Below are positions 345 through 18,688 of a stretch of 64,000 bases of DNA, piece after piece. Source of the DNA: Geodermatophilus ruber (GTDB taxonomy: Bacteria; Actinomycetota; Actinomycetes; Mycobacteriales; Geodermatophilaceae). The stretch covers positions 124,001 through 188,000 of the forward strand of contig NZ_FOSW01000002.1 in the NCBI RefSeq assembly GCF_900114385.1, written 5' to 3'. Numbering within the stretch: position 1 is the first letter of the stretch; the number at the start of each line of letters is the position of its first letter. Under the pieces are notes generated by a model. It did not search any database and was not told where the DNA came from. It was given only the letters and a program-made list of their open reading frames with translations. A program made the translations under genes and the position numbers.

Positions 345-2014
345 GCGGGGCTCCCGGGTGCCGGGGTGAGGTCGGGCCGGGCGGCGCCGCCGAGCAGCTC
401 GAGCGCCAGCTCGCGGACGCGGAAGCGCTGCAGCTTCCCGGTGGCGGTGGTGGGCAGCTCCTCGAACACGAGGATGTGCCGGGGCCGCTTGAACGCAGCC
501 AGGCTGTCCCGGCAGAAGGCCACCAGCTCGTCGGGGGTCGTGGTGGCTCCGGGGAGCAGGACGACGCAGGCGACCGGCTTGTCGAGGCCCGCCTCGTCGG
601 GTACGGAGACGACGACGACCTGGTTGACCTGCGGATGTGCGCGCAGGCGCTCCTCGACCTCGGTGGGGGAGACCCAGATGCCGCCGGCCTTGATGATGTC
701 GTCGGTGCGGCCCAGCGAGGAGTAGAAGCCGTCGGCGCTGCGGACGTAGGTGTCGCCGGTGCGCACCCACTCGCCCTGGAACACCCGCCGGGTGACGTCC
801 ATGCGGGACCAGTAGCCGGTCGCTGCGGAGGAGCCCTTCACGTACAGGTTGCCGGGCGTCCCGTCGGGAACCGGTGCGCCGTCGTCGTCGACGATCCTGG
901 CCTCGTAGCCGGGAACGATCTCGCCGGTGGCCCCGGCGCGGGTCCGGCCGGGGCGGCCGCTGATGAAGATGTGCAGCATCTCGGTGGAACCGATGCCGTC
1001 GAGCATCTCGACCCCGAAGGTGCCCGTGAACCGCTCGAACAGGGCGGCAGGGAACGCCTCGCCGGCAGAGACGCAGGCCCGCACCCCGGCGAAGGCGTCG
1101 CCCGGTAGCCCGGCGGCCAGCAGCGCGGCGTAGTAGGTGGGCCCGGCGAAGAACAGCGTCGGCCGGTGCTCGCGGAGCACCCGCAGGGTGCCGGCGGGGC
1201 TGGGCCGGGAGCGGTCGAGCACCGTGCTCGCGCCGACCGAGAACGGGAAGGTGAGGGTGTTGCCCAGGCCGTAGGCGAAGAAGAACTTGGCCACCGAGAA
1301 GGTGACGTCGTCCGGGCCGATGGCCAGGACGTGCCGGGCGTAGGTCTCGGCCGTGTCGCGCAACGAGCCGTGCCGGTGCATCGCGCCCTTGGGCTTCCCG
1401 GTCGTGCCGGAGGTGTAGAGCCAGAAGGCCGGGGAGTCGGCGACGGTGGGGTAGGGCGTCGCGGCCTGCTCGAGGAAGTCGGCGCCGGCGGTGACGAAGG
1501 CGTCCCAGGTGCGCACCCGCGCGCCGGTGACCTCCGGGAGGTCGCCGGTGGTGAGCACGACGACGTCGGCGAGGTCACGGCACCCGCTCACCGCGGTGCC
1601 CAGCCCGGCGAACTCGGAGCTCAGCGCCACCAGCCGGGCCCGGCTGTCGGTGGCCAGCGTGGCGATGTCGGCGGGCTTGAGCATGGTGCTCACCGGCACG
1701 GGGACGGCGCCGATGCGCAGGCCGGCCAGGAACGCGGTGAGCAGCTCGGGGGTGTCGCCCATGCACAGCAGCAGCCGCTCCTCGGGGCGGACGCCGGAGG
1801 CGAGCAGCGCCGCGGCGAACCGGGTCACGGCGTCCTCGACCTGGGCGTAGGTGAGGGTGCGCACGCTGCCGTCGAGGTCGACCGCGGTGATCGCCCGCCG
1901 GTCCGGCGTCGCCCGGGCGTGCCGGGTGACCAGCCACTCGGCGGCGTTGAAGAGCTCCGGTGCCGGCGGTAGGGGGGCGGCGGGTGCTGCGGGGGCGGTG
2001 TCGAGGGTGGCCAC
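341..2014 (-). CDS. bclA: Benzoate--CoA ligase family protein
   Basis: A 557-residue acyl/aryl-CoA synthetase of the ANL superfamily, normal length for benzoate-CoA ligases. Visible motifs are the P-loop-like [14 protein letters not shown] (about residue 200), [18 protein letters not shown], the RTGDTYVR motif with its adenylate-binding Asp, and the C-terminal [16 protein letters not shown] and [10 protein letters not shown] with the catalytic Lys. It activates benzoate with ATP and CoA to benzoyl-CoA, the entry step of the box pathway; boxB and boxC lie just upstream on the same strand. The ATG start follows a GAAGGG-like site. Exact substrate (benzoate or a substituted benzoate) cannot be told from sequence. 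Confidence 0.92.
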
Positions 2015-2046
2015 GCTGCTCAGCCCTTCTCGTGACGTACTGCAAC

Positions 2047-2102
2047 GGCCCTCCTGCAGGGTCCCGCCGCGAGCGTGCGAGCGGTGGGGGGCAGGAGGGT
2101 CC
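2047..2102. repeat. Intergenic palindromic element between boxB and bclA
   Basis: The 90-base gap between boxB and the ligase gene holds a nested inverted repeat: CCCTCCTGC (2049-2057) pairs with GCAGGAGGG (2091-2099), enclosing a CGAGCG-rich core. It could form a long hairpin in the operon mRNA. The core resembles an element inside copA at 29264-29325, so it looks like a dispersed family rather than a simple terminator; there is no T-tract on either strand. Confidence 0.6.
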
Positions 2103-2104
2103 TT

Positions 2105-3589
<1,485 letters not shown>

Positions 3590-3591
3590 GG

Positions 3592-5322
3592 TCAGACCCG
3601 CTTCCTGTCGTAGTCGGCCCGCTTGCCGGTGCCGTAGCGGCGCAGCGCTCCTTCGGGGCCAGCGGCGTTGGGCCGCTGGAAGATCCAGTTCTGCCAGGCG
3701 GTGAGCCGCCCGAACACCTTCGTCTCCGGCGTCTCGCGGCCGGCGAAGCGCAGGTTGGCCTCCATGCCGGTGAGCGCGTCGGGGGAGAAGCTGGCCCGCT
3801 CCTCGACGGCCAGCCGGATCTCGTCGTCCCAGTCGATGTCGTCCGGGGTGGCCGTGACCACACCCAGCTCGGCGGCGTCGGCGGCGAGGAGGTCCCGGCC
3901 GAGCGCGGCCTCCGCGGCGGCGAGCTCGTCGGCGCTGCCGAGGAAGCGGACCTGCAGCCGGGTGAGGTCGTTGCTCATCGGCAGCAGCCCGGTGTTGAAC
4001 TCGTCCAGCCGGAGCACCGCCGGCGGCAACGGGTGCGCGTCGTCCTCGAACTGCCCGTCGAGCATGTACTGCCGGTCGGCGGCGAACGCGATCTCCGCCA
4101 GCGCCCCGACGAAGCAGGACCCGGGCTCGATGAGCGCGAACAGGCTGCGGCTGGTGGTGTCCAGCCGCTTCATCGTCCGGCGGTAGAAACCGATGGTCTC
4201 GTTGACCAGCCAGTCGTCGCGGTGGGCGAGGAGGAACCGGTCGTAGGCGGCGGCGGTGGCGGGGTCGCCCTCGGTGCGCAGCAGCCAGGTGCCGACGGCC
4301 AGCTCGTTGGTGCGCAGCCGCAGGATCGCGTCGTCCAGCTCCCGGGTGGCGGCCAGCAGCCAGGCGGCGTCGCCCTGCGCGTGCAGCTCCTCGACGCTGC
4401 CCGGCACGGCCGTGGGGCCGAGGACGCTGATCGTCGCGGTCCCCGACTCGCGGTCGAGGACCACCCGGACGTGCGCGTAGCGGACGGTGTCGCCGTCGAT
4501 CTCGCGGTGCAGCGGGGTCAGTGCCACCCCGGTCGCGCCGGCGCCCGGGCGGGACGAGCCGGCGGCCGCCTCCGCGGCCCGGCGGGCGATCTCGGCGTCG
4601 AAGTCGCGGGCCTTGACGGTGGCGTCGACCAGCCGCCACCGCACCGCCCGCTCGCCGCGGATCCCCTCGGCCGTGGTGGAGAAGACATCGGCCAGGTCGC
4701 GGCGGACGCCGCGCTTGTCCACCACCCGGGTCAGCCCACCGGTGCCCGGCAGCACGCCGAGCAGCGGCACCTCGGGCAGGGACACCACCGAGGAGTTGTC
4801 GTCGACCAGCACGATCTGGTCGCAGGCCAGCGCGAGCTCGTAGCCGCCGCCGGCCGCGGTGCCGTTGACCGCGGCGAGGAACGGCAGCCCGGAGCGGGCC
4901 GAGGCGTCCTCGATGCCGTTGCGGGTCTCGTTGGTGAACTTGCAGAAGTTCACCTTCCAGCTGTGCGGCGAGGCGGCCAGCATCTTGATGTTCGCCCCGG
5001 CGCAGAACATGCGGTCCTTGCCGCTGGTCACCACGACCGCCCGGACCTCGGGGTGCTCGAACCGGATGCGCTGCACCGCGTCGTGCAGCTCGATGTCCAC
5101 GCCCAGGTCGTAGCTGTTCATCTTCAGCTCGTAGCCCGGCACGATCCCGCCGTCCTCGGCCACGTCGAGAGTCAGCGTCGCCACCTCACCGTCGACCGAC
5201 AGCGTCCAGTGCCGGTACTGCTCGGGCGAGGTGTCGAAGGACACCTCGGTCGTCGGGACCGGCTCCTCGCCGGGGGCCGAGCCCTCCGCGCCGGGGACCG
5301 AGCGGGTGTCGAGGGTGGTCAC
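3592..5322 (-). CDS. boxC: 2,3-epoxybenzoyl-CoA dihydrolase BoxC
   Basis: A 576-residue protein with two crotonase-like halves, as in BoxC (about 555 residues). The first half has the oxyanion-hole type segments DRMFCAGANIKML and NGTAAGGGYELALACDQ. It hydrolyses the epoxide of 2,3-epoxybenzoyl-CoA, opening the ring to a C6 semialdehyde-CoA plus formate. The GTG start at 5322 is chosen because a strong GGAGG sits five bases upstream on the minus strand; a more upstream ATG (5355) would place that Shine-Dalgarno inside the gene. First gene of the minus-strand operon boxC-boxB-bclA-fnr. Confidence 0.94.
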   Translation of the reverse strand: MTTLDTRSVPGAEGSAPGEEPVPTTEVSFDTSPEQYRHWTLSVDGEVATLTLDVAEDGGIVPGYELKMNSYDLGVDIELHDAVQRIRFEHPEVRAVVVTSGKDRMFCAGANIKMLAASPHSWKVNFCKFTNETRNGIEDASARSGLPFLAAVNGTAAGGGYELALACDQIVLVDDNSSVVSLPEVPLLGVLPGTGGLTRVVDKRGVRRDLADVFSTTAEGIRGERAVRWRLVDATVKARDFDAEIARRAAEAAAGSSRPGAGATGVALTPLHREIDGDTVRYAHVRVVLDRESGTATISVLGPTAVPGSVEELHAQGDAAWLLAATRELDDAILRLRTNELAVGTWLLRTEGDPATAAAYDRFLLAHRDDWLVNETIGFYRRTMKRLDTTSRSLFALIEPGSCFVGALAEIAFAADRQYMLDGQFEDDAHPLPPAVLRLDEFNTGLLPMSNDLTRLQVRFLGSADELAAAEAALGRDLLAADAAELGVVTATPDDIDWDDEIRLAVEERASFSPDALTGMEANLRFAGRETPETKVFGRLTAWQNWIFQRPNAAGPEGALRRYGTGKRADYDRKRV

Positions 5323-6365: not shown

Positions 6366-7220
6366 ATGAGGGACGTGGAGGTCATGGAGGAGCCGTTCGT
6401 GACGCGGCGGCAGGAGCTCGGCGCGGCGAGCGCGCGCAGTCTGCTGCTGACGGTGCTCGGTGAGTTCGTGCTGCCCGGCGGCCGGCCGGTGTGGACCGCC
6501 ACGCTCATCGACCTGCTGGCCGAGCTGGACGTCGCCGAGAAGGCGGCCCGCCAGGCGATCATGCGCACCGCCGACAGCGGCTGGATCGCGGGGAGCCGGG
6601 TCGGCCGGGAGACCTGCTGGTCGCTCACCGAGGCCGGGACACGGCTGCTCAAGGAGGGCACGGACCGCATCTACGGGTTCGCCGCCGACGAGCGGACGTG
6701 GGACGGCCGCTGGCTGGTCCTGACCGTCGGCATCCCGGAGAACGCGCGGCCGCTGCGCCAGCGGCTGCGGACCCAGCTCGGGTGGGCCGGGCTCGGCTCG
6801 GTGAACGGGACCACCTGGGTCACCCCGCGGGTCGACCGCGAGCGCGAGGCGCGGCGGGTGCTCGAGGAGCTCGGGCTGGTCGAGGGCAGCTGGTCGTTCG
6901 TCGCCGCGGCCGGCGTCATCGGGGACGAGCGGTCGCTGACCCGCAGCGCCTGGGACCTGGACGCCATCGAGGCCCGCTACGAGGACTTCCTCGAGCTCGC
7001 CGCCCGCCGCCGCCCCCGCACCGACCTGCAGGCGCTGGTCGCCCAGGTCCGGCTGGTGCAGGAGTGGCGGCGCTTCCCGCTCCTCGACCCCCGGCTCCCG
7101 CGGGAGCTGCTGCCGCCGCGGTGGAGCGGCAACCGGGCGGCCGAGGTGTTCCGCGAGCGACACGCCGCCTGGGCCCCGCGGGCGCAGGCGGCCTGGGCGG
7201 AGCTGATCCGGGACCGCTGA
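6366..7220 (+). CDS. PaaX family transcriptional repressor (first copy)
   Basis: A 284-residue regulator with an N-terminal winged helix (SLLLTVLGEFVLPGG then LLAELDVAEKAARQAIMRTADSGWI) and the PaaX core WDGRWLVLTVGIPENARPLRQRLRTQLGWAGLG, followed by the C-terminal alpha-helical domain ending PPRWSGNRAAEVF. Family members bind aryl-CoA effectors such as phenylacetyl-CoA and derepress catabolic genes. Lying between the box operon and a P450 gene, it is the likely aryl-CoA sensor for one or both (inference). A second start at 6384 is possible. The leader 6148-6365 has an unusually AT-rich stretch near 6205-6250 likely holding its promoter. Confidence 0.9.
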   Translation: MRDVEVMEEPFVTRRQELGAASARSLLLTVLGEFVLPGGRPVWTATLIDLLAELDVAEKAARQAIMRTADSGWIAGSRVGRETCWSLTEAGTRLLKEGTDRIYGFAADERTWDGRWLVLTVGIPENARPLRQRLRTQLGWAGLGSVNGTTWVTPRVDREREARRVLEELGLVEGSWSFVAAAGVIGDERSLTRSAWDLDAIEARYEDFLELAARRRPRTDLQALVAQVRLVQEWRRFPLLDPRLPRELLPPRWSGNRAAEVFRERHAAWAPRAQAAWAELIRDR

Positions 7221-7304: not shown

Positions 7305-8540
7305 TCAGGCGCGGACGAAGTCCAGCGGGACCGAGCGGGTGCCCCACTCCGCCCAGATCGCCATCTCGGGCGAGCCGGCCATGGTGAACGAGGAGCTGCG
7401 CGCCAGGGCCTCCTCCAGCGTGATCGTCATCATCATCCGGGCCAGCGGCGCCCCGGGGCAGCTGTGCGTACCGCGGCCGAACGAGATGTGCTGGGAGATG
7501 TTCGGGCGGTCGAGGACGAACTGCTCACCGTTCGGGAACACGCGCTCGTCCCGGTTGGCGGAGGTGTAGACGAGGGCGATCGGGTCGTCCTTGCGGATGA
7601 GCTGACCGCTCAGCATGACGTCCTCGCGCGCGGTCCGGGCCATGCCGCGGTAGGGGGAGTAGAGCCGCAGGAACTCCTCGACCGCTGCGGGGATGAGGTG
7701 CGGCTGGTTGCGGAGCTGGTCCTGGAGCTCCGGGTCCCGGCTCAGGTGGACGAACATGTTCCCGATGAAGACGCTGGGCGCCACCATGCCGGTGACGATG
7801 AGCTGCCGGACGCAGCCGAGGACCATGTCGGCAGGCAGCGGGGCGCCCTGGTACTCCGCGGCGAGCAGGGCCGCCGTGAGGTCCTCGGCCGGGTCGTAGG
7901 AGTTGGCCCGCCGCTCGTCGATGACGCTCTGGGCGATCTCGTAGAGCCGGCGGCTCAGCCTGATCACGACCTCGTGGTTGAGCACCTGGATGGCGTCGAC
8001 GTAGGTGCCGCTGACCTGCTTGATCTCCTCGGACGTCTCGACCGAGAGGTTGAAGAAGTGGGCGAAGACGTGCGCCGGGAACTTCTGCGCGTACCCCTTG
8101 CAGACGTCCACCCACTGCTGGTCGATGAGCGGGTCGAGCAGCTCGACCGAGGCGGCCCGGACCTTCGGCTCGATCGCGCGCATCTTCGGTGGCGTGAAGA
8201 AGTGGTTGATCACGCGCCGGTAGGCCATGTGGTCCGGCGGGTCCAGGTGCAGTGGCGGCCGGACGCCGGTGAAGGCGAATTTCGGGATCGCGTTCTGCTT
8301 GGACGTCGTGAAGTGCTCGATGTCGGTGATCACCGACAGCACCTCGTCGTAGCCGAGGGCCGCCCAGAACCCGCCGTACTCCTGGCTGCGCGCGATCGGG
8401 CACCGGCTCCTCAGCTCCGCGAACTCCTCGTGCGCGCTGGTGAAGGTCTCGTCGGGCCGCACCGGGTCGAAGTCGTGCTCCGCGCGCCGGGCGTCGTCGG
8501 CCTCCAGGTCGACCTGGAACCGGGGGTGCTGGGCGGTCAT
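7305..8540 (-). CDS. Cytochrome P450 with non-canonical helix I (first copy)
   Basis: A 411-residue soluble bacterial P450. The ExxR motif EFLR is at 289-292 and the heme loop FGRGTHSCPG has Cys361. Helix I reads VTGMVAPSVFIG (about 249-260), where most P450s have AGxxT with an acid-alcohol pair for O2 activation; neither acid nor Thr is present. ATG at 8540 follows GAGGA with six-base spacing and is preferred over the ATG at 8546. Divergent from the ABC-transporter operon and paralogous to the P450 at 12682 (shared YGGFWA, RPPL-D-P-H, EEFLRLYxPYRGxAR). No ferredoxin partner is adjacent. The substrate is probably an acid or acyl-CoA by context. Confidence 0.93.
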   Translation of the reverse strand: MTAQHPRFQVDLEADDARRAEHDFDPVRPDETFTSAHEEFAELRSRCPIARSQEYGGFWAALGYDEVLSVITDIEHFTTSKQNAIPKFAFTGVRPPLHLDPPDHMAYRRVINHFFTPPKMRAIEPKVRAASVELLDPLIDQQWVDVCKGYAQKFPAHVFAHFFNLSVETSEEIKQVSGTYVDAIQVLNHEVVIRLSRRLYEIAQSVIDERRANSYDPAEDLTAALLAAEYQGAPLPADMVLGCVRQLIVTGMVAPSVFIGNMFVHLSRDPELQDQLRNQPHLIPAAVEEFLRLYSPYRGMARTAREDVMLSGQLIRKDDPIALVYTSANRDERVFPNGEQFVLDRPNISQHISFGRGTHSCPGAPLARMMMTITLEEALARSSSFTMAGSPEMAIWAEWGTRSVPLDFVRA

Positions 8541-8819
8541 CGGCATTCCTCGGATCGGTGAGCGGGTGGACCGACTGCGCCGGAGGCGCTCGGGTTCCTG
8601 CGGGTAGCTGCCGCCGCGATGTCGGCGGCCGACGGGAGCAGCCTGACACGGCCGCACTGATTTTCGCCAGAGTGTTGACGGCGGTGACTTGTTCGGCAAA
8701 CATTCGCAGCGGCCCGTCGGGTGATGCGGGTCACCGGACTGACGGCCCTAGCTGTGGTCCCCTACGACCGCCCAGGTCAGCGGGGTGCAACGCTTCGAAC
8801 GAACAGACAGGCGAGTGCA
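8541..8819. promoter_or_regulatory. Divergent control region between the two P450-module transcripts
   Basis: This 279-base region separates the minus-strand P450 from the plus-strand ABC operon. A plus-strand promoter-like pair is TTGACG at 8675-8680 and AAACAT at 8698-8703, spaced 17 bases. The 8660-8705 stretch is much less GC-rich than its surroundings. A TTCGAA-centred partial palindrome lies near 8796. PaaX products encoded on both sides are the obvious candidate regulators; no certain PaaX site could be picked by eye. Confidence 0.4.
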
Positions 8820-10019
8820 ATGCCGCTGGATGAGACCACCAGTTCCGCGACACCGGTCGTGGAAGTGAAGAACCTGATCAAGCGCTTCCGCCGGGAGAGC
8901 GGGGCCGTCGTCAACGCCATCGACGACGTGACCTTCGAGGTCGCGCAGGGCGACTTCGTCGTCCTCCTGGGCCCCAGCGGGTGCGGCAAGACCACGCTGC
9001 TGCGCACCATCGCCGGGCTCGAGACGCCGGACGAGGGCTCGATCGCCATCGCCGGGCGGACCCAGTTCTCGTCCCGGGAGGGGATCGAGGTCCCGCCCGA
9101 GCGGCGGGACATCAGCATGATCTTCCAGTCCTATGCGCTGTGGCCGCACATGACGGCGTTCAAGAACGTCGCCTATCCGCTGCTCAGCCGGCGCGGCCGG
9201 AAGGTCCCGAAGGACGAGGTCGCCCGGCGCGTGCGCGAGGCGCTCGAACTCGTCGGCGTCGGTGAGCTGGAGCGGCAGTACCCGGGCCAGATGAGCGGTG
9301 GCCAGCAGCAGCGGATCGCCCTCGCCCGCGCGCTGGTGAACAACGACGATCTGGTGCTCTTCGACGAACCCCTGTCGAACGTGGACGCCAAGGTCCGCGA
9401 GCAGCTGCGCTTCGAGCTGGTCTCCATGCAGCGCAAGCTCGGCTTCTCGGCCCTGTTCGTCACCCACGACCAGACCGAGGCCATGGAGCTGGCGCACCGG
9501 ATCGCGGTGCTCGACAGCGGGCGCATCGCCCAGTTCGGCAGCCCCCAGGAGATCTACCACCGGCCGGCGACCCGGTACGTCGCCAAGTTCATCGGTGCCA
9601 TCAACGAGTCGCTCGGCACCGTCTCCGCCGTCGACGGGGACACGGTCGTCGTCGACACCGGCCACGGGCGGGTCGTGGGCGCTCTGGTCGGGCAGCGCGT
9701 GGCGGTGGGCGACCGGGTGGCGGCGATGTGGCGTCCCGAGCGCGGCCTGCTCTCCCGTGAGGAGCCGCAGGCGGTCAACCGCTGGCTGGGCCGGGTCAAG
9801 GCGCCGATGTTCGTCGGCTCGCACACCGAGTACCTGCTCGCCGTGGGTGACGTCGACGTCCGCCTCTGGAGCCCTCGCTCCGATCTCGTCGACGCGGGAG
9901 CCGCGGCGTGGGTGTCCGTGGCGCCCGAGGACGTGCGGGTCCTGCCGCTCGACGGCGACGGCAGGCGCGCGGACGCCGAGCGCCCGAGTGCCGCACCGGC
10001 GATGGTCACGGCGTCGTGA
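8820..10019 (+). CDS. ABC transporter ATP-binding protein (FbpC/PotA type)
   Basis: A 399-residue ATPase with Walker A GPSGCGKTTL, Q-loop FQSYALWPHMT, signature MSGGQQQRIALARAL, Walker B LVLFDEPLSNVD and the switch His in VTHDQTEAME, followed by a C-terminal TOBE-like domain (about 290-380). This arrangement is found in Fe3+, thiamine, polyamine and some organic-anion importers. It starts the long operon that continues to 18688; its stop overlaps the permease GTG. In this setting it probably powers uptake of the organic substrate of the downstream enzymes rather than iron, but that is inference. Confidence 0.92.
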   Translation: MPLDETTSSATPVVEVKNLIKRFRRESGAVVNAIDDVTFEVAQGDFVVLLGPSGCGKTTLLRTIAGLETPDEGSIAIAGRTQFSSREGIEVPPERRDISMIFQSYALWPHMTAFKNVAYPLLSRRGRKVPKDEVARRVREALELVGVGELERQYPGQMSGGQQQRIALARALVNNDDLVLFDEPLSNVDAKVREQLRFELVSMQRKLGFSALFVTHDQTEAMELAHRIAVLDSGRIAQFGSPQEIYHRPATRYVAKFIGAINESLGTVSAVDGDTVVVDTGHGRVVGALVGQRVAVGDRVAAMWRPERGLLSREEPQAVNRWLGRVKAPMFVGSHTEYLLAVGDVDVRLWSPRSDLVDAGAAAWVSVAPEDVRVLPLDGDGRRADAERPSAAPAMVTAS

Positions 10020-11785
10020 GCGGCACCGGCGCCCTCCTCAGCGACCGGCCGGCGGGCCGGCACGCTCGGCTCTCGCGGCGGCTGCCCGGCCCCTTCGACG
10101 CCGTCACCCTGCTCATCGCGGCCGTCTTCATCGCCATCGTCGTCGTCCCGCTCGGCCGGGTGCTGACCCGGCTGTTCTGGGTCGACGGGGGCCTCACCCT
10201 GGAGCCGATCCGCAAGACGCTGGCCATCCCCGACCTGGGTTCGCTCCTGCTGGACACGCTGATCCTGGTCCTGGCCAGCTCGGCGCTGGCGTTCGTGATC
10301 GGCGTCGGGCTGGCCTGGCTCAACGAGCGCACCAACGCCCGGATGGGGCTGCTGACCGACGCGCTGCCGCTGCTGCCGTTCCTCCTGCCGCCGGTGGCCG
10401 GGGCGGTCGGCTGGACGATGCTGCTGTCGCCGCGCGCCGGCCTGCTCAACAGCTGGATCCGGGACGGCCTCGCCGTCTTCGGCATCGAGCTGCGCGAGGG
10501 CCCCTTCGACATCAACTCCTGGTACGGCCTGATCCTGGTCATGGCCTTCTACGCCGTCCCGTTCGTGTTCATGAACGCCTCGGCCGGCCTGCGGAACCTG
10601 GATCCGGCGCTCGAGGAGGCCTCGCGGCTCAGCGGGGCGGGCACGTTCCGGACGCTGCGCACGGTCACGCTCCCCGCGGTCGCGCCCAGCCTGGGTGCCG
10701 GGCTGCTGCTGGCCGTCTGGTTCGGCGTCGGGATGTTCTCGATCCCGGCGATCATCGGGACCCCGGCCGGCATCGACGTCATCTCCGTGCGGATCGTCGA
10801 GCTGCTGACCTTCACCTTCCCGGCGGAGACCGACGTGGCGATCGGGCTCAGTTTCTTCGTGGTCGTCTTCGTCGGGCTGGCCTACTGGCTGCAGCTGCGG
10901 ATCCTCCGGCGCGGCCGGCACGCCACCGTGGCGGGCAAGGGTGCCCGGGCGAAGACCATCGACCTGGGTGCGTGGAAGTGGCCGGCCCGGCTGCTGGTGC
11001 TCGGCTACGTCGTCTTCTCGACGATCCTGCCGATCGTCGCGCTGGTGCTGGTGTCGCTGAACGGCTTCTGGACGCCGGACATCGCCTGGTCCAACCTCAG
11101 CTTCACCGCGCTGCAGCGGGCCGTCTTCGACGACGCGACCACGCTCCAGGCGCTGGTGAACAGCCTCGGGCTCGGGCTGGTCGGCGGGCTGATCGGCATC
11201 CTCGGCGCGGCGATGATCGCCCTCTACGTGGCGCGCCGGCGGACCCTGCTCGCCAAGGGCATCGACGCGGCCATCAAGCTGCCCGCGGCGATCTCCAACA
11301 TGGTCATCGCCGTCGGCATCCTGCTGCTCCTGGCCGGTGCGCCGTTCTTCCTCTCCGGCACCCTGCTGATCCTGCTGATCGGCTACCTCGCGCTGTACCT
11401 GCCGCAGGCCTCGATCGCTGCCGATGCCGCGGTCAGCGGCGTCGGCAAGGAGCTGCCGGAGGCCTCGGCGGTCTCCGGGGCCCGGCCCTTCCGCACCTTC
11501 TCCCGGATCTACCTGCCGCTGATGATGCCGGGGCTGGTCGCCGGCTGGGCGCTGCTGTTCATCCGCATGGTGGGAGACCTGACCGCGTCGGCCATCCTGG
11601 CCGGCACGGCCAACCCGGTGGTCGGCTTCCGCATCCTCGAGGTGTTCACCAGCGGTTCCTTCGCCCTGCTGGCGTCCCTGTCGACCGTCCTCGTCCTCAT
11701 CACCGGCACGGTCCTGGTCGTCGTTCTCGCCTACACCCGGCGCAAGTCCAAGCTCGGTGTCGCCGCACGGGTCGGGGGTGTCTGA
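10016..11785 (+). CDS. ABC transporter permease, two fused membrane domains (FbpB type)
   Basis: A 589-residue integral membrane protein with about a dozen hydrophobic segments and two copies of the importer coupling motif: LEEASRLSGAGTFRTLRTVTLP in the first half and LPEASAVSGARPFRTFSRIYLP in the second. Fused permeases of this kind form the whole transmembrane channel in Fbp-like importers. The GTG at 10016 overlaps the ATPase stop (GTGA), showing translational coupling. The following paaX begins three bases after its stop. Substrate unknown; see the receptor at 17642. Confidence 0.92.
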   Translation: MSGTGALLSDRPAGRHARLSRRLPGPFDAVTLLIAAVFIAIVVVPLGRVLTRLFWVDGGLTLEPIRKTLAIPDLGSLLLDTLILVLASSALAFVIGVGLAWLNERTNARMGLLTDALPLLPFLLPPVAGAVGWTMLLSPRAGLLNSWIRDGLAVFGIELREGPFDINSWYGLILVMAFYAVPFVFMNASAGLRNLDPALEEASRLSGAGTFRTLRTVTLPAVAPSLGAGLLLAVWFGVGMFSIPAIIGTPAGIDVISVRIVELLTFTFPAETDVAIGLSFFVVVFVGLAYWLQLRILRRGRHATVAGKGARAKTIDLGAWKWPARLLVLGYVVFSTILPIVALVLVSLNGFWTPDIAWSNLSFTALQRAVFDDATTLQALVNSLGLGLVGGLIGILGAAMIALYVARRRTLLAKGIDAAIKLPAAISNMVIAVGILLLLAGAPFFLSGTLLILLIGYLALYLPQASIAADAAVSGVGKELPEASAVSGARPFRTFSRIYLPLMMPGLVAGWALLFIRMVGDLTASAILAGTANPVVGFRILEVFTSGSFALLASLSTVLVLITGTVLVVVLAYTRRKSKLGVAARVGGV

Positions 11786-11788
11786 GCC

Positions 11789-12685
11789 ATGACCCCGGAA
11801 ACCCTCGACGCCCTGGGCGTGCCGGAGCCGGGCACCGCGGCCGACGAGACCGTCCTCCGGCCGGAGAACCTGCTGCTGACCCTCTTCGGCGCGCACCTGC
11901 TCGGGCGTCCGGTGCTGCTCGCCGGCACCAGCATCATCGAGGCGATGCAGCGGGTCGGCGTCTCCCCGCACGCGACCCGCTCGGCCGTCGCGCGCATGGT
12001 CAAGAAGGGGCGCCTGGTCAGCCAGCGGCGGGGCCGGCCGGTCTACTACGGGCTCACCGCGCGCTCGCGGGAGGTGCTGCACGACGCGTACGTCCAGATC
12101 TGGCGGACCGGAGCGGTCAACCGGCACTGGGACGGCCGGTGGACGCTGCTCAGCTTCACCCTTCCCGAGTCCTGGCAGCGCCAGCGCCACGAGCTGAGGA
12201 CGCGCCTGATCTGGGCCGGCTTCGGGCCGCTCCAGGGCGGCCTCTGGATCGCGCCGTCGGCCGTGGACGTCGACCGGCTCCTGTCCGGCCTGGAGGCCGC
12301 CGAGCACGTCCGGCCCTTCGTCGCCCAGCCCCACGCCGGTCTGGACGTCGCCGGGATGGTGCGCGACGTCTGGGACATCCCGCACCTGGCCCACAAGTAC
12401 GAGCGGTTCGTCGAGCGCTGGGACGGCGGCGCCGCCGACCGCAGCCACACCGACCCCCTGGGCCGCCAGCTGGCGCTGCAGGAGGAGTGGCGGCTGGCCC
12501 TGCGGGAGGACCCCCAGCTGCCCGTCGAGCTGCTGCCCGCGCCGTGGCCCGCCGAACGGGCCCAGCAGCTGTTCCACCGGTTGCACGCCGAGATCGAGGT
12601 CGAGGCCCGCGCCGTCGCGGCGTCGGTATTCGACACCATCCCCGCGCCCGTCGGAGCGGGCGACCACGAGGAGGCCGCGCCGTGA
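11789..12685 (+). CDS. PaaX family transcriptional regulator (second copy)
   Basis: A 298-residue PaaX-type protein: winged-helix region LLLTLFGAHLLGRPVLLAG followed by GVSPHATRSAVARMVKKGRLVSQRRGRPVYY, then the core HWDGRWTLLSFTLPESWQRQRHELRTRLIWAGFGP and the C-terminal region ending LLPAPWPAERAQQLF. It is embedded in the operon between the permease and the P450, with the P450 GTG overlapping its stop. Family members respond to aryl-CoA thioesters, so its place inside the operon argues that the pathway intermediate is a CoA ester. It shares only the family fold with the PaaX at 6366. Confidence 0.9.
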   Translation: MTPETLDALGVPEPGTAADETVLRPENLLLTLFGAHLLGRPVLLAGTSIIEAMQRVGVSPHATRSAVARMVKKGRLVSQRRGRPVYYGLTARSREVLHDAYVQIWRTGAVNRHWDGRWTLLSFTLPESWQRQRHELRTRLIWAGFGPLQGGLWIAPSAVDVDRLLSGLEAAEHVRPFVAQPHAGLDVAGMVRDVWDIPHLAHKYERFVERWDGGAADRSHTDPLGRQLALQEEWRLALREDPQLPVELLPAPWPAERAQQLFHRLHAEIEVEARAVAASVFDTIPAPVGAGDHEEAAP

Positions 12686-13896
12686 CCGCCGTCCCGGGCC
12701 CGGTGCACCCGGACTTCGACCCCCTGGAGTCCGACGACCCGACCGTTGCCCACGGGCTGTACGCGCGGCTGCGCGCGGAGTGCCCGGTGGCGCACACGGA
12801 CGCGTACGGCGGTTTCTGGGCCCTGACCCGGCACGCCGACGTGGCCGCCGCGGCGGGTGACTCCGCCACCTTCATCTCCTCGGTCCGCGCGGTGGTGCCC
12901 AGCGACCCCCGCGGGCTGCGCCGCCCACCGCTCAACTTCGACGCGCCCGCGCACACGCCCTACCGCCGGGCACTGGACCGGACGCTGCAGCGGGCACGCA
13001 TCAGCCGGCTGGAGCCCCGGCTCCGGGCGCACGCCGCGCGCGAGCTGAGCCCGATGGTGGAGCGGGGGAGCGGGGACGTCGCCCAGGAGTTCGGCGCCCG
13101 CTTCCCGGCCTGGGTGACCACCGAGTGGCTCAACCTGCACCCCGGCATCGCACCGCAGCTGGCCGACACCGCGACAGCCTGGGTGCGGGCCTGGCGCCGG
13201 ATGGACGGTCCGGTGGTCAACGAGATGAGCGAGCGGATGTACCAGATCGCCCGCGACCTCGTCCGCGACCGCCGGCACGCCCCCCGGCCGGTGGAGGAGG
13301 ACCCGGCGAGCTCGCTGCTCGCCGAGCGTCTCGACGGCCGCCCGCTGGAGGAGGAGCACCTCGTCGGCGCCCTCCGGCAGAGCCTCGTCGTCGGCATGGT
13401 GGCGCCGCCGATCATCCTCGGGTCGATCTGCGTGCACCTGGCCCGCGACCCCGAGCTGCAGGCCCGGCTGCGGGCCCACCCGGAGCTCCTGCCGGACGCG
13501 CTGGAGGAGTTCCTGCGCCTGTACACGCCCTACCGGGGTTTCGCGCGGACGGTCTCCCGGGACGTCGAACTCCACGGTCGGGTGATCCGCCCCCGGGAGC
13601 CGGTGACCCTCGTCTACGCCTCGGCCAACCGCGACGCCGAGGTCTTCCCCGAGCCCGACGCCTTCGTCCTCGGCCGGCCGAACATCGCCCAGCACCTGGC
13701 GTTCGGGCGCGGCCGCCACCGCTGCGTCGGGATGCCCCTGGCCCGGCTGTCCCTGCGGATCGCGCTGGGGGAGCTGCTGTCCCGCACCACCCACTTCGCG
13801 CTGGACGGGCCACTCGAGGGCGCGCGCATGCCCGAGATCGGCTACGTGTCCGCGCCGCTGCGCCTCACGCCGGTGGACGAGCGGGGGCCCCGGTGA
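12682..13896 (+). CDS. Cytochrome P450 with non-canonical helix I (second copy)
   Basis: A 404-residue P450 starting at a GTG that overlaps the paaX stop. The ExxR motif is EFLR at 276-279 and the heme loop FGRGRHRCVG has Cys348. Helix I reads VVGMVAPPIILG (about 236-247), again without the acid-Thr pair, matching the divergent P450 at 7305. The pair therefore belongs to one unusual subfamily. The CoA-transferase start overlaps its stop, so the oxidation and CoA-transfer steps are made from the same message. No dedicated redox partner is encoded nearby. Confidence 0.93.
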   Translation: MTAVPGPVHPDFDPLESDDPTVAHGLYARLRAECPVAHTDAYGGFWALTRHADVAAAAGDSATFISSVRAVVPSDPRGLRRPPLNFDAPAHTPYRRALDRTLQRARISRLEPRLRAHAARELSPMVERGSGDVAQEFGARFPAWVTTEWLNLHPGIAPQLADTATAWVRAWRRMDGPVVNEMSERMYQIARDLVRDRRHAPRPVEEDPASSLLAERLDGRPLEEEHLVGALRQSLVVGMVAPPIILGSICVHLARDPELQARLRAHPELLPDALEEFLRLYTPYRGFARTVSRDVELHGRVIRPREPVTLVYASANRDAEVFPEPDAFVLGRPNIAQHLAFGRGRHRCVGMPLARLSLRIALGELLSRTTHFALDGPLEGARMPEIGYVSAPLRLTPVDERGPR

Positions 13897-15143
13897 CCGG
13901 CTCCGCGGGTGACCGGCCCCTGGCCGGCATGGTCGTCATCGACCTGACCAACGCCCTGGCCGGCCCGTACGCGACGCTCCTGCTCGCGGGGCTCGGCGCC
14001 CGCGTGGTCAAGGTCGAGAACCCGTCCCGCGGCGGCGACCCGGCGCGCAACAACTCGCCCTACCTGTCCGACGGCCGGCTCAGCGTCCGTCGCCAGGCAC
14101 CCGAGGACATGTCGGTCTCCATGCTGGTCCGCGGCCGCAACAAGGAGAGCCTCACCCTCGATCTGCGCACCGACGAGGGCCGCGAGGTGCTCGCCGATCT
14201 GGTCCGCAGCGCCGACATCCTGGTCGAGAACTACAGCGCCGGCGTCACCGCCCGGCTCGGCATCGACCACGCCTGGGCGCGGCAGCTCAACCCCCGGCTC
14301 GTCTACACCTCGATCAGCGGGTTCGGTGCCGGGGGCGGCCCCGGCACCGGCAAGGCCATGGACACGATCATCCAGGCGCTGAGCGGCGTGATGATGACCT
14401 CGGGGGCGCCGGGGGAGCCGCCGGTGCGCCTCGGCCTCCCGGTCGCCGACCTCCTCGCCCCGCTGTACGCCGTGATCGGGACGGTGGCCGCCGTGCTGCA
14501 GGCCGAGCGGACCGGCGTCGGGCAGCACGTCGACGTCTCCATGCTCGGTGCCCTCACGTCCCTCGTCGCCTGCGAGCCGTTCGACGCCTTCGAGCAGATC
14601 GGGCTGCCGCTGCGCACCGGCGCGACCGTGCCCCGGCTCGCCCCGTTCGGCACCTTCGAGGCGAAGGACGGCTGGTTCGCGCTGTGCGCGCCGGTCGACC
14701 CGCTGGCCCACGGGCTCCTGCGTGCCATCGGGCGGGAAGACCTCGTCGAGGACCCGCGCTTCGCCGGCCGCGACGGCCGGGTCGCCCACGCCGACGAGCT
14801 GCACGGACTGATCGCGGCGTGGTCCGCCGACCGCAGCCTGGCCGAGGTGCTCTCCGCGCTCGACGCCGCGGGCGCGCCGGCGGCCGAGGTCCGGGACCCC
14901 AGCAGCGCGGTGCGCGACCCGCTGGTCCTCGCCCGGGGCGAGGTCGTCCGGCTCACCGAGGCGACCGGCCCGGACGTCGTCGAGCTGTACGGGACCGGGA
15001 TCCCGATCGTGATGTCCGGCAGCGGCACGACGCTGGACCGACCGGCACCGCAGCTCGGCGAGCACACCCGCAGCGTGTTGCGCGAGCTGTGCGGCTACCC
15101 GGAGGAGCGCATCGACGCCCTGGCCGAGGGCGGGGTGGTCTGA
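13893..15143 (+). CDS. CaiB/BaiF family (family III) CoA-transferase
   Basis: A 416-residue family III CoA-transferase. Typical segments are the N-terminal MVVIDLTNALAGPYAT and LGARVVKVENP, then NKESLTLDLRTDEGREVL, SISGFGAGG, and AMDTIIQALSGVM, whose Asp (about 157) aligns with the catalytic aspartate that forms the acyl anhydride. These enzymes move CoA between carboxylic acids, giving the substrate a CoA thioester without ATP. Starts at a GTG overlapping the P450 stop. It presumably charges the imported acid or recycles CoA from the product; donor and acceptor are unknown. Confidence 0.92.
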   Translation: MTGSAGDRPLAGMVVIDLTNALAGPYATLLLAGLGARVVKVENPSRGGDPARNNSPYLSDGRLSVRRQAPEDMSVSMLVRGRNKESLTLDLRTDEGREVLADLVRSADILVENYSAGVTARLGIDHAWARQLNPRLVYTSISGFGAGGGPGTGKAMDTIIQALSGVMMTSGAPGEPPVRLGLPVADLLAPLYAVIGTVAAVLQAERTGVGQHVDVSMLGALTSLVACEPFDAFEQIGLPLRTGATVPRLAPFGTFEAKDGWFALCAPVDPLAHGLLRAIGREDLVEDPRFAGRDGRVAHADELHGLIAAWSADRSLAEVLSALDAAGAPAAEVRDPSSAVRDPLVLARGEVVRLTEATGPDVVELYGTGIPIVMSGSGTTLDRPAPQLGEHTRSVLRELCGYPEERIDALAEGGVV

Positions 15144-15144
15144 C

Positions 15145-16302
15145 GTGGACGTGACGACAGCGGCTGCCGCGCTGGACCGGCTGGAGCAGGTCTACTCCTC
15201 CCGCCCCGGGACCGTTCGGGCCCTGGCCGAGCAGGGGCGCCGCGTCATCGGGGTGGTCGGTGCGGACGTCCCGGTGGAGCTGGTGGAGGCCGCCGGCGCC
15301 GTGGCCTACCGGCTGCACGGGCACCCCGACGTGCTCAGCGCGGAGGCGCAGGAGGTCCTGGGCGCCTCGCTCGACCCGGTCGCCCACTCGGTGCTGACGC
15401 AGGTGCTCGGCGGGTCGCTGACCTTCCTCGACGGCCTGGTGGTCTCCCGCGACTCGCAGGCATCCCTCCAGCTGTTCTACGCGCTGCGGGAGCTTCGCCG
15501 GCTGGAACCGCACCGGGCGATCCCACCGCTCCACCTGCTCGACCTGCTGCACCTCCCGACCGAGCCCACGGCACGGTACGACGAGGTGCGGCTGGGCCGG
15601 CTGGCCGACGTGCTCGGCTCGTGGACCGGGCAGCCGGTGACCGCCGGCCTCACCGCCTCGGTGGCCGCGGTGGCGGAACTGCGGCATCTCCTGCGGGAGG
15701 TCAGCGACCTCCGGCGCGGCCCCCGGCCGGTCCTCACCGGCACCCGGGTGCTGCGCGTCCTCGGTGCTGCAGCCGCCCTTCCGACGGATGTGAGCCTCCC
15801 CCTGCTCCGCCGCCTGGTGGACGGCGCCGGAGCGCTGCCCGCGCTGCCGCAGGGCCGGCGGGTCTACCTCACCGGCAGCGCCCAGGACCACGACGAGGTG
15901 TACGTCGCCCTGGAGGCGGCGCTCGGCTGTCTCGTCGTCGGGGAGGACACCGACTGGGGGGACCTCGCACTCTCCGCCGACGTCGGCGGCGCCGACCTCG
16001 GGGCGCTCGCACGGGCCTACCGTGACCGCGGCCCGGCTGCGGCGACCGCGTCGCTGCCCCGGCGAGCGGCGTGGACCGCCGAGCAGGTGCGTCGCAGTGC
16101 CGCGGAGGTCCTGCTGGGCGTCGTCCGCGAGCACGACGAGGCGCCGGCCTGGGACTTCCCGGCCCAGCGGGCGGCAGTGGCAGCCGACGGGGTGCCGAGC
16201 GCGCTCCTGGCGCGCCAGCCGTACCGGGTCCTCGCGACGGACCTCCGTTCGGCGCTGGGCTCCGCGACCTGCGAGCCGGTCCTCTCGGGAGCACGGGCAT
16301 GA
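15145..16302 (+). CDS. 2-hydroxyacyl-CoA dehydratase D-component/BcrC-like protein lacking cluster cysteines (subunit 1)
   Basis: A 385-residue member of the HgdB/FldC/BcrC-like family. The layout is recognisable: GVVGADVPVELVEAAGAVAYRL, SLTFLDGLVVSRDSQASLQLFYALREL, RRVYLTGSAQDHDEVYVALEAALG and a terminal ADGVPSALL. In family enzymes three conserved cysteines hold a [4Fe-4S] cluster. Here the equivalent places read SLDPVAHS, VVSRDSQAS and GEDTDWGD; the only cysteines are C262 and C376. So it probably keeps the acyl-CoA-binding fold but not the radical dehydratase/reductase chemistry. GTG start one base after the CoA-transferase stop; its stop overlaps the next ATG. No ATP-dependent activator gene is nearby. 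Confidence 0.8.
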   Translation: MDVTTAAAALDRLEQVYSSRPGTVRALAEQGRRVIGVVGADVPVELVEAAGAVAYRLHGHPDVLSAEAQEVLGASLDPVAHSVLTQVLGGSLTFLDGLVVSRDSQASLQLFYALRELRRLEPHRAIPPLHLLDLLHLPTEPTARYDEVRLGRLADVLGSWTGQPVTAGLTASVAAVAELRHLLREVSDLRRGPRPVLTGTRVLRVLGAAAALPTDVSLPLLRRLVDGAGALPALPQGRRVYLTGSAQDHDEVYVALEAALGCLVVGEDTDWGDLALSADVGGADLGALARAYRDRGPAAATASLPRRAAWTAEQVRRSAAEVLLGVVREHDEAPAWDFPAQRAAVAADGVPSALLARQPYRVLATDLRSALGSATCEPVLSGARA

Positions 16303-17546
16303 CCCGCCTGGAGTCGGCGCTGGCCGCGACGGCATACCAGCGCGAGTGGTTCGCCGGCATCCGCGCCCGCGTGGCGGCAGGGGAACCGCTCGCGCTGGTC
16401 AACGCCGATGCCCCGCAGGAGGTCCTCCGGGCCATGGGCATCCCGTACGTGGTCAACCAGTGGTGGGCCTCGGTGGTCTCGGCCCGGCAGCGGGCGGACG
16501 CGAGCCTCCAGGTGCTGCGCGACCGCGGGTACCCGGACTACAGCCGCCAGTACGACGCGATCTCGCTCGGCTCCCACTTCCTGGCCGAGGACGAGGCCCC
16601 GTGGGGTGGCCTGCCCCGGCCGACCGTCGTCGTCGCCGAGACCAGCGGCGATGCCGCGCGCAAGGTCTTCGACCTCTGGGACGAGCTGGACGGCACGAGT
16701 TTCTACCCGATCGAGCGTTCCTCCGCCGTCGAGGCGCCGAGCCGCTGGTGGGAGCTGGTCCCGCACCGCTGGGAGGAGGCGTTCGGACCCGAGCGGCTGG
16801 ACCTGCTCTCGTCGGAGATCGAGGGCCTGGCGGCGTTCCTCGAGGAGCGCACCGGCCGCCGGCTGGACCTCGACCGGCTCGCCGAGGTCATGGACCTGGT
16901 CAACGAGCAGGCCGAGTGGAACCGGCGCACCCGCGACCTGATCGCCGCGGCCCGGCCGACCCCCGTGGCGGTCGGCGACACGATCCCCAGCGTGATGATC
17001 CCGCAGTGGCACCGCGGGACGCCGTGGGCACGTGACGCGGCGCGCCGGCTCTACGAGGAGGTCGCCGACCTGGTCGACCGCGGCGCCGCGGTGGCGCCGG
17101 GGGAGCGGCTGCGGCTCATGTGGCTGGGCCGGGGCCTCTGGTACGACCTGGGCCTCTACCGGCGCTTCCAGGAGCGCTACGGCGCGGTCTTCGTCTGGTC
17201 GATGTACCTGGCCATCGCCGCCGACGGTTACGCCCGCTACGGAACCGACCCGATCCGCACGCTGGCCGCCCGATTCGCCGGCCTGACCGACCAGCTGTAC
17301 ACGCCGCCGTGGAGCACCGAGTGGTACGTCAAGGAGGCCCTGAGCCACGGCGTCGACGGCGTCGTGCACCTGGTCGCCGACGACGTGCCGGGCAGTTGGT
17401 TCACCACCCGAGCGCTCGAGGCCGCCGGCATCCCCGTCCTCGAGGTCCGCGCCAACAACGCCGATCCGCGCGGGGACGGCGGGACGCGGCTGGAGCGGGC
17501 GGTCTGCGACTTCATCGAACGACGACTCCTACCCAGCCGGCCGTGA
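16299..17546 (+). CDS. 2-hydroxyacyl-CoA dehydratase-like protein lacking cluster cysteines (subunit 2)
   Basis: A 415-residue partner of the preceding protein, translationally coupled to it (ATGA). Family layout: AGEPLALVNADAPQEVLRAMGIPYV, PRPTVVVAETSGDAARKVFDLW, a central helical region with PQWHRGTPWARDAARRLYEE, and a C-terminal HGVDGVVHLVADDVPGSWFTTRALEAAGIPVLEV. Cysteines expected in a cluster-bearing enzyme are replaced (ETSGDA where NGCD is usual, ADDVPGS where a Cys is usual); only one Cys remains, about residue 403 near the C-terminus. Two adjacent Cys-free paralogues imply a conserved heterodimer with new chemistry or a binding role rather than random decay: both frames are intact. 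Confidence 0.78.
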   Translation: MTRLESALAATAYQREWFAGIRARVAAGEPLALVNADAPQEVLRAMGIPYVVNQWWASVVSARQRADASLQVLRDRGYPDYSRQYDAISLGSHFLAEDEAPWGGLPRPTVVVAETSGDAARKVFDLWDELDGTSFYPIERSSAVEAPSRWWELVPHRWEEAFGPERLDLLSSEIEGLAAFLEERTGRRLDLDRLAEVMDLVNEQAEWNRRTRDLIAAARPTPVAVGDTIPSVMIPQWHRGTPWARDAARRLYEEVADLVDRGAAVAPGERLRLMWLGRGLWYDLGLYRRFQERYGAVFVWSMYLAIAADGYARYGTDPIRTLAARFAGLTDQLYTPPWSTEWYVKEALSHGVDGVVHLVADDVPGSWFTTRALEAAGIPVLEVRANNADPRGDGGTRLERAVCDFIERRLLPSRP

Positions 17547-17641: not shown

Positions 17642-18688
17642 ATGCCCACCAGACGTACCCGTTACGAGGCCCTCGGGATGGGACTCGCCCTCACCCTCGT
17701 CCTGGCCGCGTGCGGCGGGGGCGAGGACGACGCCTCCGCCGAGGAGCCCGCCGCTCCCACGCTGGAGAGCTCGGCGGAGCTCGACGAGCTCATCGCCGCC
17801 GCCCAGGAGGAGAACTGCCTGACGCTCTACGGCGTCCCGGACGAGGCGGCACTGCAGGCCGTGACCGACGAGTTCACCGCGCAGTACGACATCCCGGTGT
17901 CGTTCGTCCGACTGGTCTCCGCCGACCTGCAGCAGCGCTACTCCTCCGAGGCGGAGGCGGGCGCGGTGGCAGCCGACGTCATCCTGCTGACCCACTCTCC
18001 GTTCTACGAGCAGGCGTACGCCAACGGTTGGCTGACCCCGGTGAGCGAGGCCGAGCTGCCCAGCTACCCGGAGGGCTTCCCCGCGGACTACACCGCCGAC
18101 GACGGCGCGACGCCGCTGGTCCAGCTGGTCCCGACCACCATGGTCTACAACACCGGGCTGGTGTCCGAGCCGCCCTCGTCGTGGGAGGACTACGCGGACC
18201 CGGCCTACCAGGGCGAGCTGCTGTTCGCCGAGCCGACGTCGTCCCCGGCGAACGTGGCGTTCTGGACGCTCATGCGGGAGACCTACGGGGACGACTTCCT
18301 GGAGGCCGTCGCCGCCAACCAGCCCAGCTGGTACAACAGCGCCGTCCCTGCCACTCAGGGCGTCGCGGCCGGCGAGGGGTCGCTCGGCTTCCCCGGGGTC
18401 ACCGCGATCGTGCGGAGCCTGCAGGCCGCCAACGCGCCGGTCGACGCGGTCCAGCTGTCCCCGACGACCGGGCCGCAGATCGCTCTGGGCCTCACCGCCG
18501 GCAGCGAGTGCTCGAACGCCGCCCGCCTGTTCGCCAACTTCGTCCTCTCGGAGGAGGGCAACACCTACCTCAACGAGCAGACCGGTGACATCTCCCCATA
18601 CGCCCCCGAGGCCGAGGACTTCGTCCGGCCGACGCCGGTCCCGGAGGAGCAGGCCGAGGAGATCCGCACCCTGCTGGGCGCTCCCTGA
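17642..18688 (+). CDS. ABC transporter substrate-binding lipoprotein
   Basis: A 348-residue extracytoplasmic solute-binding protein. A short positively charged N-terminus and hydrophobic core end in the lipobox LAAC with Cys24, so it should be lipid-anchored. The mature part resembles the Fe3+/2-aminoethylphosphonate/thiamine-type receptors (EENCLTLYGVPDEAALQAVTDEFTAQY, then DVILLTHSPFYEQAY, TTMVYNTGLV, PTSSPANVAFW and a late ASEC-like AGSECSNAARLFANFVLSEEG). It lacks an obvious Tyr-rich Fe site seen by eye, so an organic ligand is plausible. AGGAA precedes the ATG. Last gene of the operon starting at 8820, completing the importer. Confidence 0.9.
   Translation: MPTRRTRYEALGMGLALTLVLAACGGGEDDASAEEPAAPTLESSAELDELIAAAQEENCLTLYGVPDEAALQAVTDEFTAQYDIPVSFVRLVSADLQQRYSSEAEAGAVAADVILLTHSPFYEQAYANGWLTPVSEAELPSYPEGFPADYTADDGATPLVQLVPTTMVYNTGLVSEPPSSWEDYADPAYQGELLFAEPTSSPANVAFWTLMRETYGDDFLEAVAANQPSWYNSAVPATQGVAAGEGSLGFPGVTAIVRSLQAANAPVDAVQLSPTTGPQIALGLTAGSECSNAARLFANFVLSEEGNTYLNEQTGDISPYAPEAEDFVRPTPVPEEQAEEIRTLLGAP

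Follow-up and report, generated by a model that had tools for sequence, protein, structure and literature searches.

Two cytochrome P450s (P450s), here called P450A and P450B, that are encoded in a 64,000 nucleotide stretch of Geodermatophilus ruber DNA (contig NZ_FOSW01000002.1, positions 124,001-188,000, forward strand, of assembly GCF_900114385.1; the whole stretch is termed the window below, and feature coordinates are counted in it) have lost both residues of the helix I acid-alcohol pair, a textbook feature of P450 oxygen activation. Valine stands at the position of the acid, alanine at that of the threonine, and proline follows. Both belong to a G[MIL][VI]AP family of no fewer than 104 distinct members, spread over several phyla, in which neither residue of the pair is kept and Ala-Pro, the criterion by which these members were selected, is fixed. 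The relevant features are as follows.

7305..8540, minus strand: P450A, 411 amino acids, a heme-thiolate cytochrome P450 of the G[MIL][VI]AP family (PF00067, 5.2e-24; ATG at 8540, stop at 7305)
7773..7790, minus strand: helix I GMVAPS of P450A, residues 251-256 (the acid replaced by Val and the Thr by Ala, with Pro next)
7803..7808, minus strand: Arg245-Gln246 in helix I of P450A, at the positions of CYP199A4 Arg243-Ser244
7644..7652, minus strand: Tyr297-Arg298-Gly299 of P450A, after the ExxR motif
7458..7460, minus strand: heme-ligand Cys361 of P450A
12682..13896, plus strand: P450B, 404 amino acids, a paralogue 41% identical to P450A and of the same family (PF00067, 1.5e-20; GTG at 12682)
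13393..13410, plus strand: helix I GMVAPP of P450B, residues 238-243
13375..13380, plus strand: Arg232-Gln233 of P450B, equivalent to Arg245-Gln246 of P450A
13531..13539, plus strand: Tyr284-Arg285-Gly286 of P450B

The original prediction, made from the letters of the window, had placed the two motifs at just these residues, and it was exact. Could a shift of register nevertheless bring a threonine onto a neighbouring position? That is ruled out, as helix I of the window P450s aligns by phmmer without gaps to the GHLTT and GNETT of solved P450s. The clearest register, also from phmmer, comes from P450cin N242A (3bdz), whose GIDAT lies over GMVAP with Val at Asp241, Ala at residue 242 and Pro at Thr243. 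Structures were predicted with AlphaFold2 for P450A and for the neighbouring protein H2, the models being free of heme and ligand; that of P450A (mean pLDDT 93.3) has a helix I of residues 237-267, unbroken in the DSSP string, and in fold it comes closest to P450cin and P450cam (Z about 45). The features by which a P450 is recognised, ExxR (E289, R292) and the heme ligand Cys361, are present in 104/104 family members; in NCBIfam no P450 model was above cut-off for the window P450s. Sequencing error and a pseudogene are both ruled out by the open frames and by retention of the motif in relatives and, since Ala-Pro is kept family-wide with ExxR and the heme cysteine intact, the genes are taken to be under selection rather than decayed.

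How widespread is this state? A scan of 84,980 species genomes gave 239 confirmed relatives, the best 80 of which were kept and correspond to 78 loci. One of these (L073) is frameshifted and was left out; the 77 intact loci all read G[MIL][VI]AP (36 GMVAP, 17 GIVAP, 14 GIIAP, 8 GMIAP, 1 GLIAP and 1 GLVAP). The scan used two patterns, one of which contained helix I (..GM[VI]), and because that pattern demands GM[VI], the 33 loci with Ile or Leu at the Met position were found only by the helix-I-free one; all 33 have Ala-Pro. By record titles the family extends through Actinomycetota, Bacillota, Chloroflexota, Pseudomonadota and Myxococcota. Closer to home, among 60 relatives and the genome itself, both P450s are present in two others from the taxonomic family of G. 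ruber (G027 and G035), while in a third, G001, a related P450 reads GHATT. Two further genomes with close relatives, G133 and G315, were found among 396 of the phylum, and in all four the helix I motif is kept.

In a quick-method tree of 87 P450s, built with the motif columns removed (68 rows with Ala-Pro and 19 without), the Ala-Pro state needs two changes, namely a single gain followed by a drift to IGA in L059:8829. P450A and P450B fall in two well supported subclades, and the tree thus points to a single ancestral loss common to both, one family signature. The original prediction had drawn weight from the absence of the pair in two paralogues; the pair is indeed missing in both, but they do not count as independent events, the motif having been inherited once. 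Defined by Ala-Pro at Thr252 and the next position, together with Tyr-Arg-Gly after ExxR, the family includes both window P450s. What it should be called is another matter. The naming rule asks for over 40% identity to a named member, and Novosphingobium aromaticivorans WP_041551821.1 shares 48% identity; no CYP name turned up for it. CYP203A was not confirmed as the family name, the accessible part of PMC7780096 being without helix I information. In the open-access literature searched there was no paper on this P450 family, which is not proof of none.

Ordinary P450s of the phylum served for comparison: 28 readable open reading frames (ORFs) of 30 loci from 60 genomes, the loci being the best-scoring of a longer list and including one P450 of the G. 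ruber genome. The acid is present in 22 of these and Thr or Ser at the Thr position in 24, or there or one residue later in 27. One control, L133, reads AGHVAPR; it is 39% identical to own_L005, the closest relatives compared are other P450s, and as it belongs to another lineage V-A-P must have arisen more than once. Further V-x-P variants are L082x (V-V-P) and G315_2 (V-G-P), and the solved CYP113A1 (7ayx), which reads GYLPAS at this stretch, is also without the usual pair. Ten other P450s were found in the genome itself, eight with Thr or Ser at the Thr position, the exceptions being L008 (Glu-Ala-Thr) and L012 (C27:12385-12849), whose helix I reads GAMQEPGH and which has a Fer2 protein adjoining; we take L012 and that protein to resemble GcoA/GcoB.

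Has the lost pair been replaced from within helix I? Among the 104 distinct members, which were compared with 19 other P450 rows, no acid occurs anywhere at positions 246-259, and the acid position is Val or Ile in 104/104. The outcome that was to overturn the original prediction, a conserved threonine or acid at the oxygen-binding groove after alignment, was found neither in these members nor in the alignments to solved P450s. The loss is accordingly real, with no conserved acid or hydroxyl substituting in the helix. What is conserved lies elsewhere: Arg245 is in 104/104 members, Gln246 in 102/104, Arg94 in 103/104 and Tyr297, Arg298 and Gly299 in 104 each, in addition to the usual P450 residues Arg108, E289, R292, R302 and Cys361. 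The Tyr-Arg-Gly triad, which unlike Ala-Pro was not a selection criterion, occurs among the 19 other rows in L059:8829 only.

A clue to the role of Arg245-Gln246 is provided by another P450 of the same genome, about 20 kb from the window (L006, C19:104275-105384), which is of CYP199A type (480 bits to 2fr7). P450A is 29% identical to it, its alignment shows the helix I order Arg-Ser-x-x-x-x-x-x-Asp-Thr, and through this ungapped register Arg245-Gln246 fall on CYP199A4 Arg243-Ser244. In CYP199A4 these two residues act on the substrate carboxylate jointly with Arg92 and Ser95 (PMC11854964), and in PbdA the carboxylate and an ordered water are held at the equivalent Arg236-Ser237 (PMC11530827); CYP199A enzymes bind benzoate carboxylates at this Arg-Ser site (PMC11854964, PMC11530827). 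By analogy an acid substrate is plausible for the family, the more so as the cluster encodes an importer and a coenzyme A (CoA)-transferase. The neighbouring genes are these.

6366..7220, plus strand: PaaX1, a second PaaX-like regulator, start by inspection; the same PaaX loci are matched in relatives at 31-38% identity
8820..10019, plus strand: ATP-binding subunit of an ATP-binding cassette (ABC) importer, divergent from P450A (PF00005); conserved in G027, G035, G133 and G315
10016..11785, plus strand: ABC importer permease, start codon provisional; 63-89% identical in the four relatives
11789..12685, plus strand: PaaX2, a PaaX-family regulator sharing its last 4 bases with the start of P450B (PF20803, PF07848, PF08223)
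13893..15143, plus strand: type III CoA-transferase, its first 4 bases shared with the end of P450B (PF02515, 1.1e-106)
15145..16302, plus strand: H1, a BzdN-like subunit of the 2-hydroxyacyl-CoA dehydratase/benzoyl-CoA reductase family, assigned by sequence (PF06050, 1.9e-24; BzdN, 4.2e-8)
16299..17546, plus strand: H2, a BzdO/HadB-like subunit of the same family (PF06050, 4.8e-36; BzdO, 2e-12)
17642..18688, plus strand: solute-binding lipoprotein of the ABC importer (PF13416 and others); at the same place in G027, G035, G133 and G315

These neighbours recur. By tblastn the P450(s), ABC ATPase, permease, PaaX, solute-binding protein and H2 are common to those four genomes, and the CoA-transferase is present in G027, G035 and G133. 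In the 78 family loci, 58 of them at least 15 kb and some short, PaaX is found in 23, the CoA-transferase in 25, H1/H2 in 24 and the permease and solute-binding protein in 20 each; among the actinobacterial loci, the 23 that reach 15 kb or more give 20, 12, 13, 16 and 16, respectively. Importer, PaaX, CoA-transferase and dehydratase-fold pair are thus met near family P450s across phyla, and in an annotated record of Croceicoccus marinus the P450 has near it a CoA-transferase and a protein assigned to the 2-hydroxyacyl-CoA dehydratase family. On pNL2 of N. aromaticivorans the P450 borders genes for catechol 1,2-dioxygenase, muconate cycloisomerase and the beta-ketoadipate route, and in L028 a member adjoins catechol-2,3-dioxygenase-like and 4-oxalomesaconate tautomerase genes. 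The box genes of the window (341-5322; BoxC and a ligase by NCBIfam, and presumably BoxB) were considered as part of the system and rejected, there being no BoxB, BoxC or benzoate-CoA-ligase homologues above the thresholds used in the 78 loci, and only weak ligase and crotonase similarities in the comparisons with relatives; the box genes are therefore neighbours of the P450s in this genome alone. PaaX1 may serve them instead. Between P450A and the ABC genes a search for operator-like inverted repeats and promoters gave nothing of note.

H1 and H2 are peculiar in their own right. The H2 model (pLDDT 89.7) matches 3o3m_A with Z 40.0 and 8s02_C with Z 39.2, the next unrelated fold being at 7.8, and in G133 and G315 the two subunits form a single open frame. 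Class I benzoyl-CoA reductases and 2-hydroxyacyl-CoA dehydratases are recognised by three cysteines per subunit, whereas H1 has two cysteines, and H2 one, in the entire protein. Compared with 12 relatives of the iron-sulfur (Fe-S) type, the column of the first ligand cysteine is kept in 0/13 H1 and 0/16 H2 sequences, the second in 0/13 and 3/16, and the third in 6/13 and 2/16 (8/29). That these columns are those of the ligands is in part our assumption from general knowledge. As L055, L062 and L065 retain some of the cysteines, the loss looks gradual. The genome has no BcrAD/BadFG-type activator ATPase over the PF01869 cut-off, with two partial matches below it, and no other PF06050 gene; none of the 8 genomes sampled from its order or class has such a gene, while 37/100 in the phylum do. 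A pair of this fold without the Fe-S ligand cysteines, in an aerobic-type genome with no activator over the cut-off, is possibly more unusual than the P450 motif itself.

What might all this be for? The account we prefer, still tentatively, is that P450A and P450B are monooxygenases of a catabolic cassette for a carboxylic acid and obtain protons via water and substrate instead of helix I. The ABC importer would take up the acid, probably aromatic or hydroaromatic; the type III CoA-transferase would activate it; and H1 and H2, of the dehydratase/reductase fold and free of Fe-S clusters, would process the activated acid, though that order of steps is itself conjecture. In the P450s, presumably driven by NAD(P)H, the acid would be held by Arg245/Gln246 and perhaps also Tyr297-Arg298, while protons for oxygen activation would reach the iron through ordered water and a substrate group in place of Asp/Glu-Thr, Ala254-Pro255 leaving an open, kinked groove for their delivery. 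The account is favoured by the nearest folds being monooxygenases, by P450s without the threonine being known to turn over (P450eryF, P450cin) and by the aromatic ring-cleavage genes beside members in N. aromaticivorans and L028. Judged from the pattern of loss and conservation, substrate-assisted or water-mediated delivery would be the most likely route for the protons.

Several points weigh against this account. CYP199A-type sites keep the carboxylate at a distance from the iron, where the other end of the substrate lies, so that Arg245/Gln246 argue for an acid substrate and not for its carboxylate as proton donor. Arg245 is moreover present in 11/19 of the other rows, including Thr-bearing relatives, and hence does not track loss of the pair; nor do V-x-P helices demand Arg298, as L133, L082x and G315_2 are without Tyr-Arg-Gly. 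H1/H2-like genes and CoA-transferases accompany only the minority of loci counted above, some of which are short, and the lack of a ferredoxin gene adjoining the P450s weakly favours other electron sources, or peroxide. The suggestion in the original prediction that a substrate group, thioester or carboxylate, supplies the missing function thus holds in part: P450eryF and P450cin are precedents without the threonine and a carboxylate substrate is plausible, but a CYP199A-like site does not make the carboxylate a donor.

A bolder version, which we consider somewhat unlikely, would make the cassette the aerobic equivalent of the benzoyl-CoA reductase/2-hydroxyacyl-CoA dehydratase pathway, with each of the two types of redox enzyme rebuilt: H1/H2, without clusters or activator, as a substrate-holding or non-redox CoA enzyme, and one or two relay-less P450s as the oxidants, the acid substrate completing their active site. 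If so, the family would let one test, on natural enzymes, whether P450s can in principle do without the acid-alcohol pair.

Is the family perhaps one of peroxygenases, or of users of the peroxide shunt as in CYP152, that lost the pair because it was not needed? It is unlikely, although CYP152 has Arg-Pro in place of the pair (PMC5818669) and a proline stands after the Thr position here. The CYP152 arginine is absent, as the invariable Val or Ile at the acid position shows, and the proline of Val-Ala-Pro comes one residue later, on which grounds membership of CYP152 was rejected. Electron supply speaks less clearly. None of the Fer2 or Fer4_15 matches of the genome lies within the window, and a crude motif scan of 87 family loci came up with no ferredoxin motif of 3Fe-4S type, nor did any family P450 have a 2Fe-2S motif beside it. 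A ferredoxin is beside the control P450 in 4/40 loci of only about 4 kb each (against 0/78 for the family, Fisher p 0.012); left out of that count were L046, where a 2Fe-2S gene is beside a Thr-bearing P450 and about 8 kb from the family member, and L035, whose match looks spurious. However, as 36/40 control loci are likewise without one, the absence is weak evidence; several Fer2 and Fer4_15 proteins are encoded elsewhere in the genome, and the nearest folds are ordinary monooxygenases.

Slightly less probable is that the P450s are ordinary monooxygenases with a local hydroxyl as substitute, be it Thr250, at the usual Ala before Gly, in the subgroup of P450A, or Ser/Thr256 in many others. Position 250 is Thr in 35 of the 104 members and position 256 is Ser in 50 and Thr in 16 (66/104 together), but with Val250 in 67 and Ala in 2, and Pro256 in 19 including P450B, neither is family-wide and neither can be the common solution. 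The chances are lower again that the substrate is an acyl-CoA from the adjacent CoA-transferase, its thioester or pantetheine amide supplying the proton path. The 4-base overlap of P450B with the transferase gene, and a transferase homologue in 25/78 loci, are in its favour, but a type III CoA-transferase may come into play ahead of the P450s as well as after them, the Arg245/Gln246 pair corresponds to the small-acid site of CYP199A, and no CoA-binding feature was identified. That there is no O2 activation at all, the proteins being heme isomerases or dehydratases or decayed, non-catalytic partners, would accord with both members of the pair missing, as is typical where P450s work on peroxides or rearrange their substrates, yet is made very improbable by the strong conservation and the universal ExxR and heme cysteine.

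Some observations on individual loci deserve record. In Blastococcus haudaquaticus a gene for PurU (formyltetrahydrofolate deformylase; L028:2182-3501, clustering with ORFs in L043 and L057) adjoins that for P450A, an adjacency that may point to the release of a one-carbon unit. In 28 family loci (e.g., L084:5943-7082) there is a community of 34 ORFs with a CapA-like representative (PF09587). A short-chain dehydrogenase/reductase (SDR) cluster is present in L026, L027, L030, L031, L048 and L061, and close to several of these lie a CoA-ligase, an amidohydrolase (PF04909 in L027) and, by inspection, small MaoC-like ORFs, a possible second module. Beside the proteobacterial members L092, L096 and L098 and their neighbours are a tannase/feruloyl esterase (PF07519), an S15-type hydrolase and a weak PETase-like match, and such secreted ester hydrolases nearby suggest that the natural substrate is esterified.

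With a family of this size the proton source can be addressed with many natural enzymes, Thr-bearing close relatives serving as controls, and the recurring CoA-transferase and dehydratase-fold pair without Fe-S ligands point to an uncharacterised catabolic route. Known exceptions to the acid-alcohol pair are few and scattered, with peroxygenases, P450cin and P450eryF as examples (PMC9366932), and how the family relates to these is instructive. P450eryF (CYP107A1) has Ala245 at the Thr position, the 5-OH of its substrate being thought the proton donor (PMC10741444), and Ala254 and Ala241 of the window P450s correspond. To that extent the EryF-type analogy of the original prediction is apt, but P450eryF keeps its acid (Glu244, PMC10741444), as does P450cin, while here acid and alcohol are both lost; it also has no Pro after the Ala in its motif, and a macrolide for substrate. 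P450cin (CYP176A1), the best fold match to P450A (Z 45.7), has no Thr at the 252-equivalent, with Asn242 natural and the N242A mutant active (PMC8398027). It is 25% identical and retains Asp241 and Thr243 where the family has Val/Ile and Pro, and the Val-Ala-Pro of the window P450s is not the Asp-Asn-Thr that marks CYP176. In CYP152 (BSbeta, OleT) the pair is likewise replaced, with a Pro, but by Arg-Pro at the pair itself, the Arg binding the fatty-acid carboxylate over the heme (PMC5818669), whereas the family has Val-Ala and then Pro. CYP199A2/A4 and PbdA share the Arg at the Arg243 position, a polar residue at that of Ser244 and, probably, an acid substrate; they differ in keeping the acid and Thr252 and in having Ser where the family has Gln, and P450A is below 40% identity to the type as represented by L006. 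BzdNO and HadBC, finally, resemble H1/H2 in fold (for H2) and in distant sequence similarity, and differ in that H1/H2 have lost the Fe-S ligand cysteines and that this genome has no activator over the cut-off.

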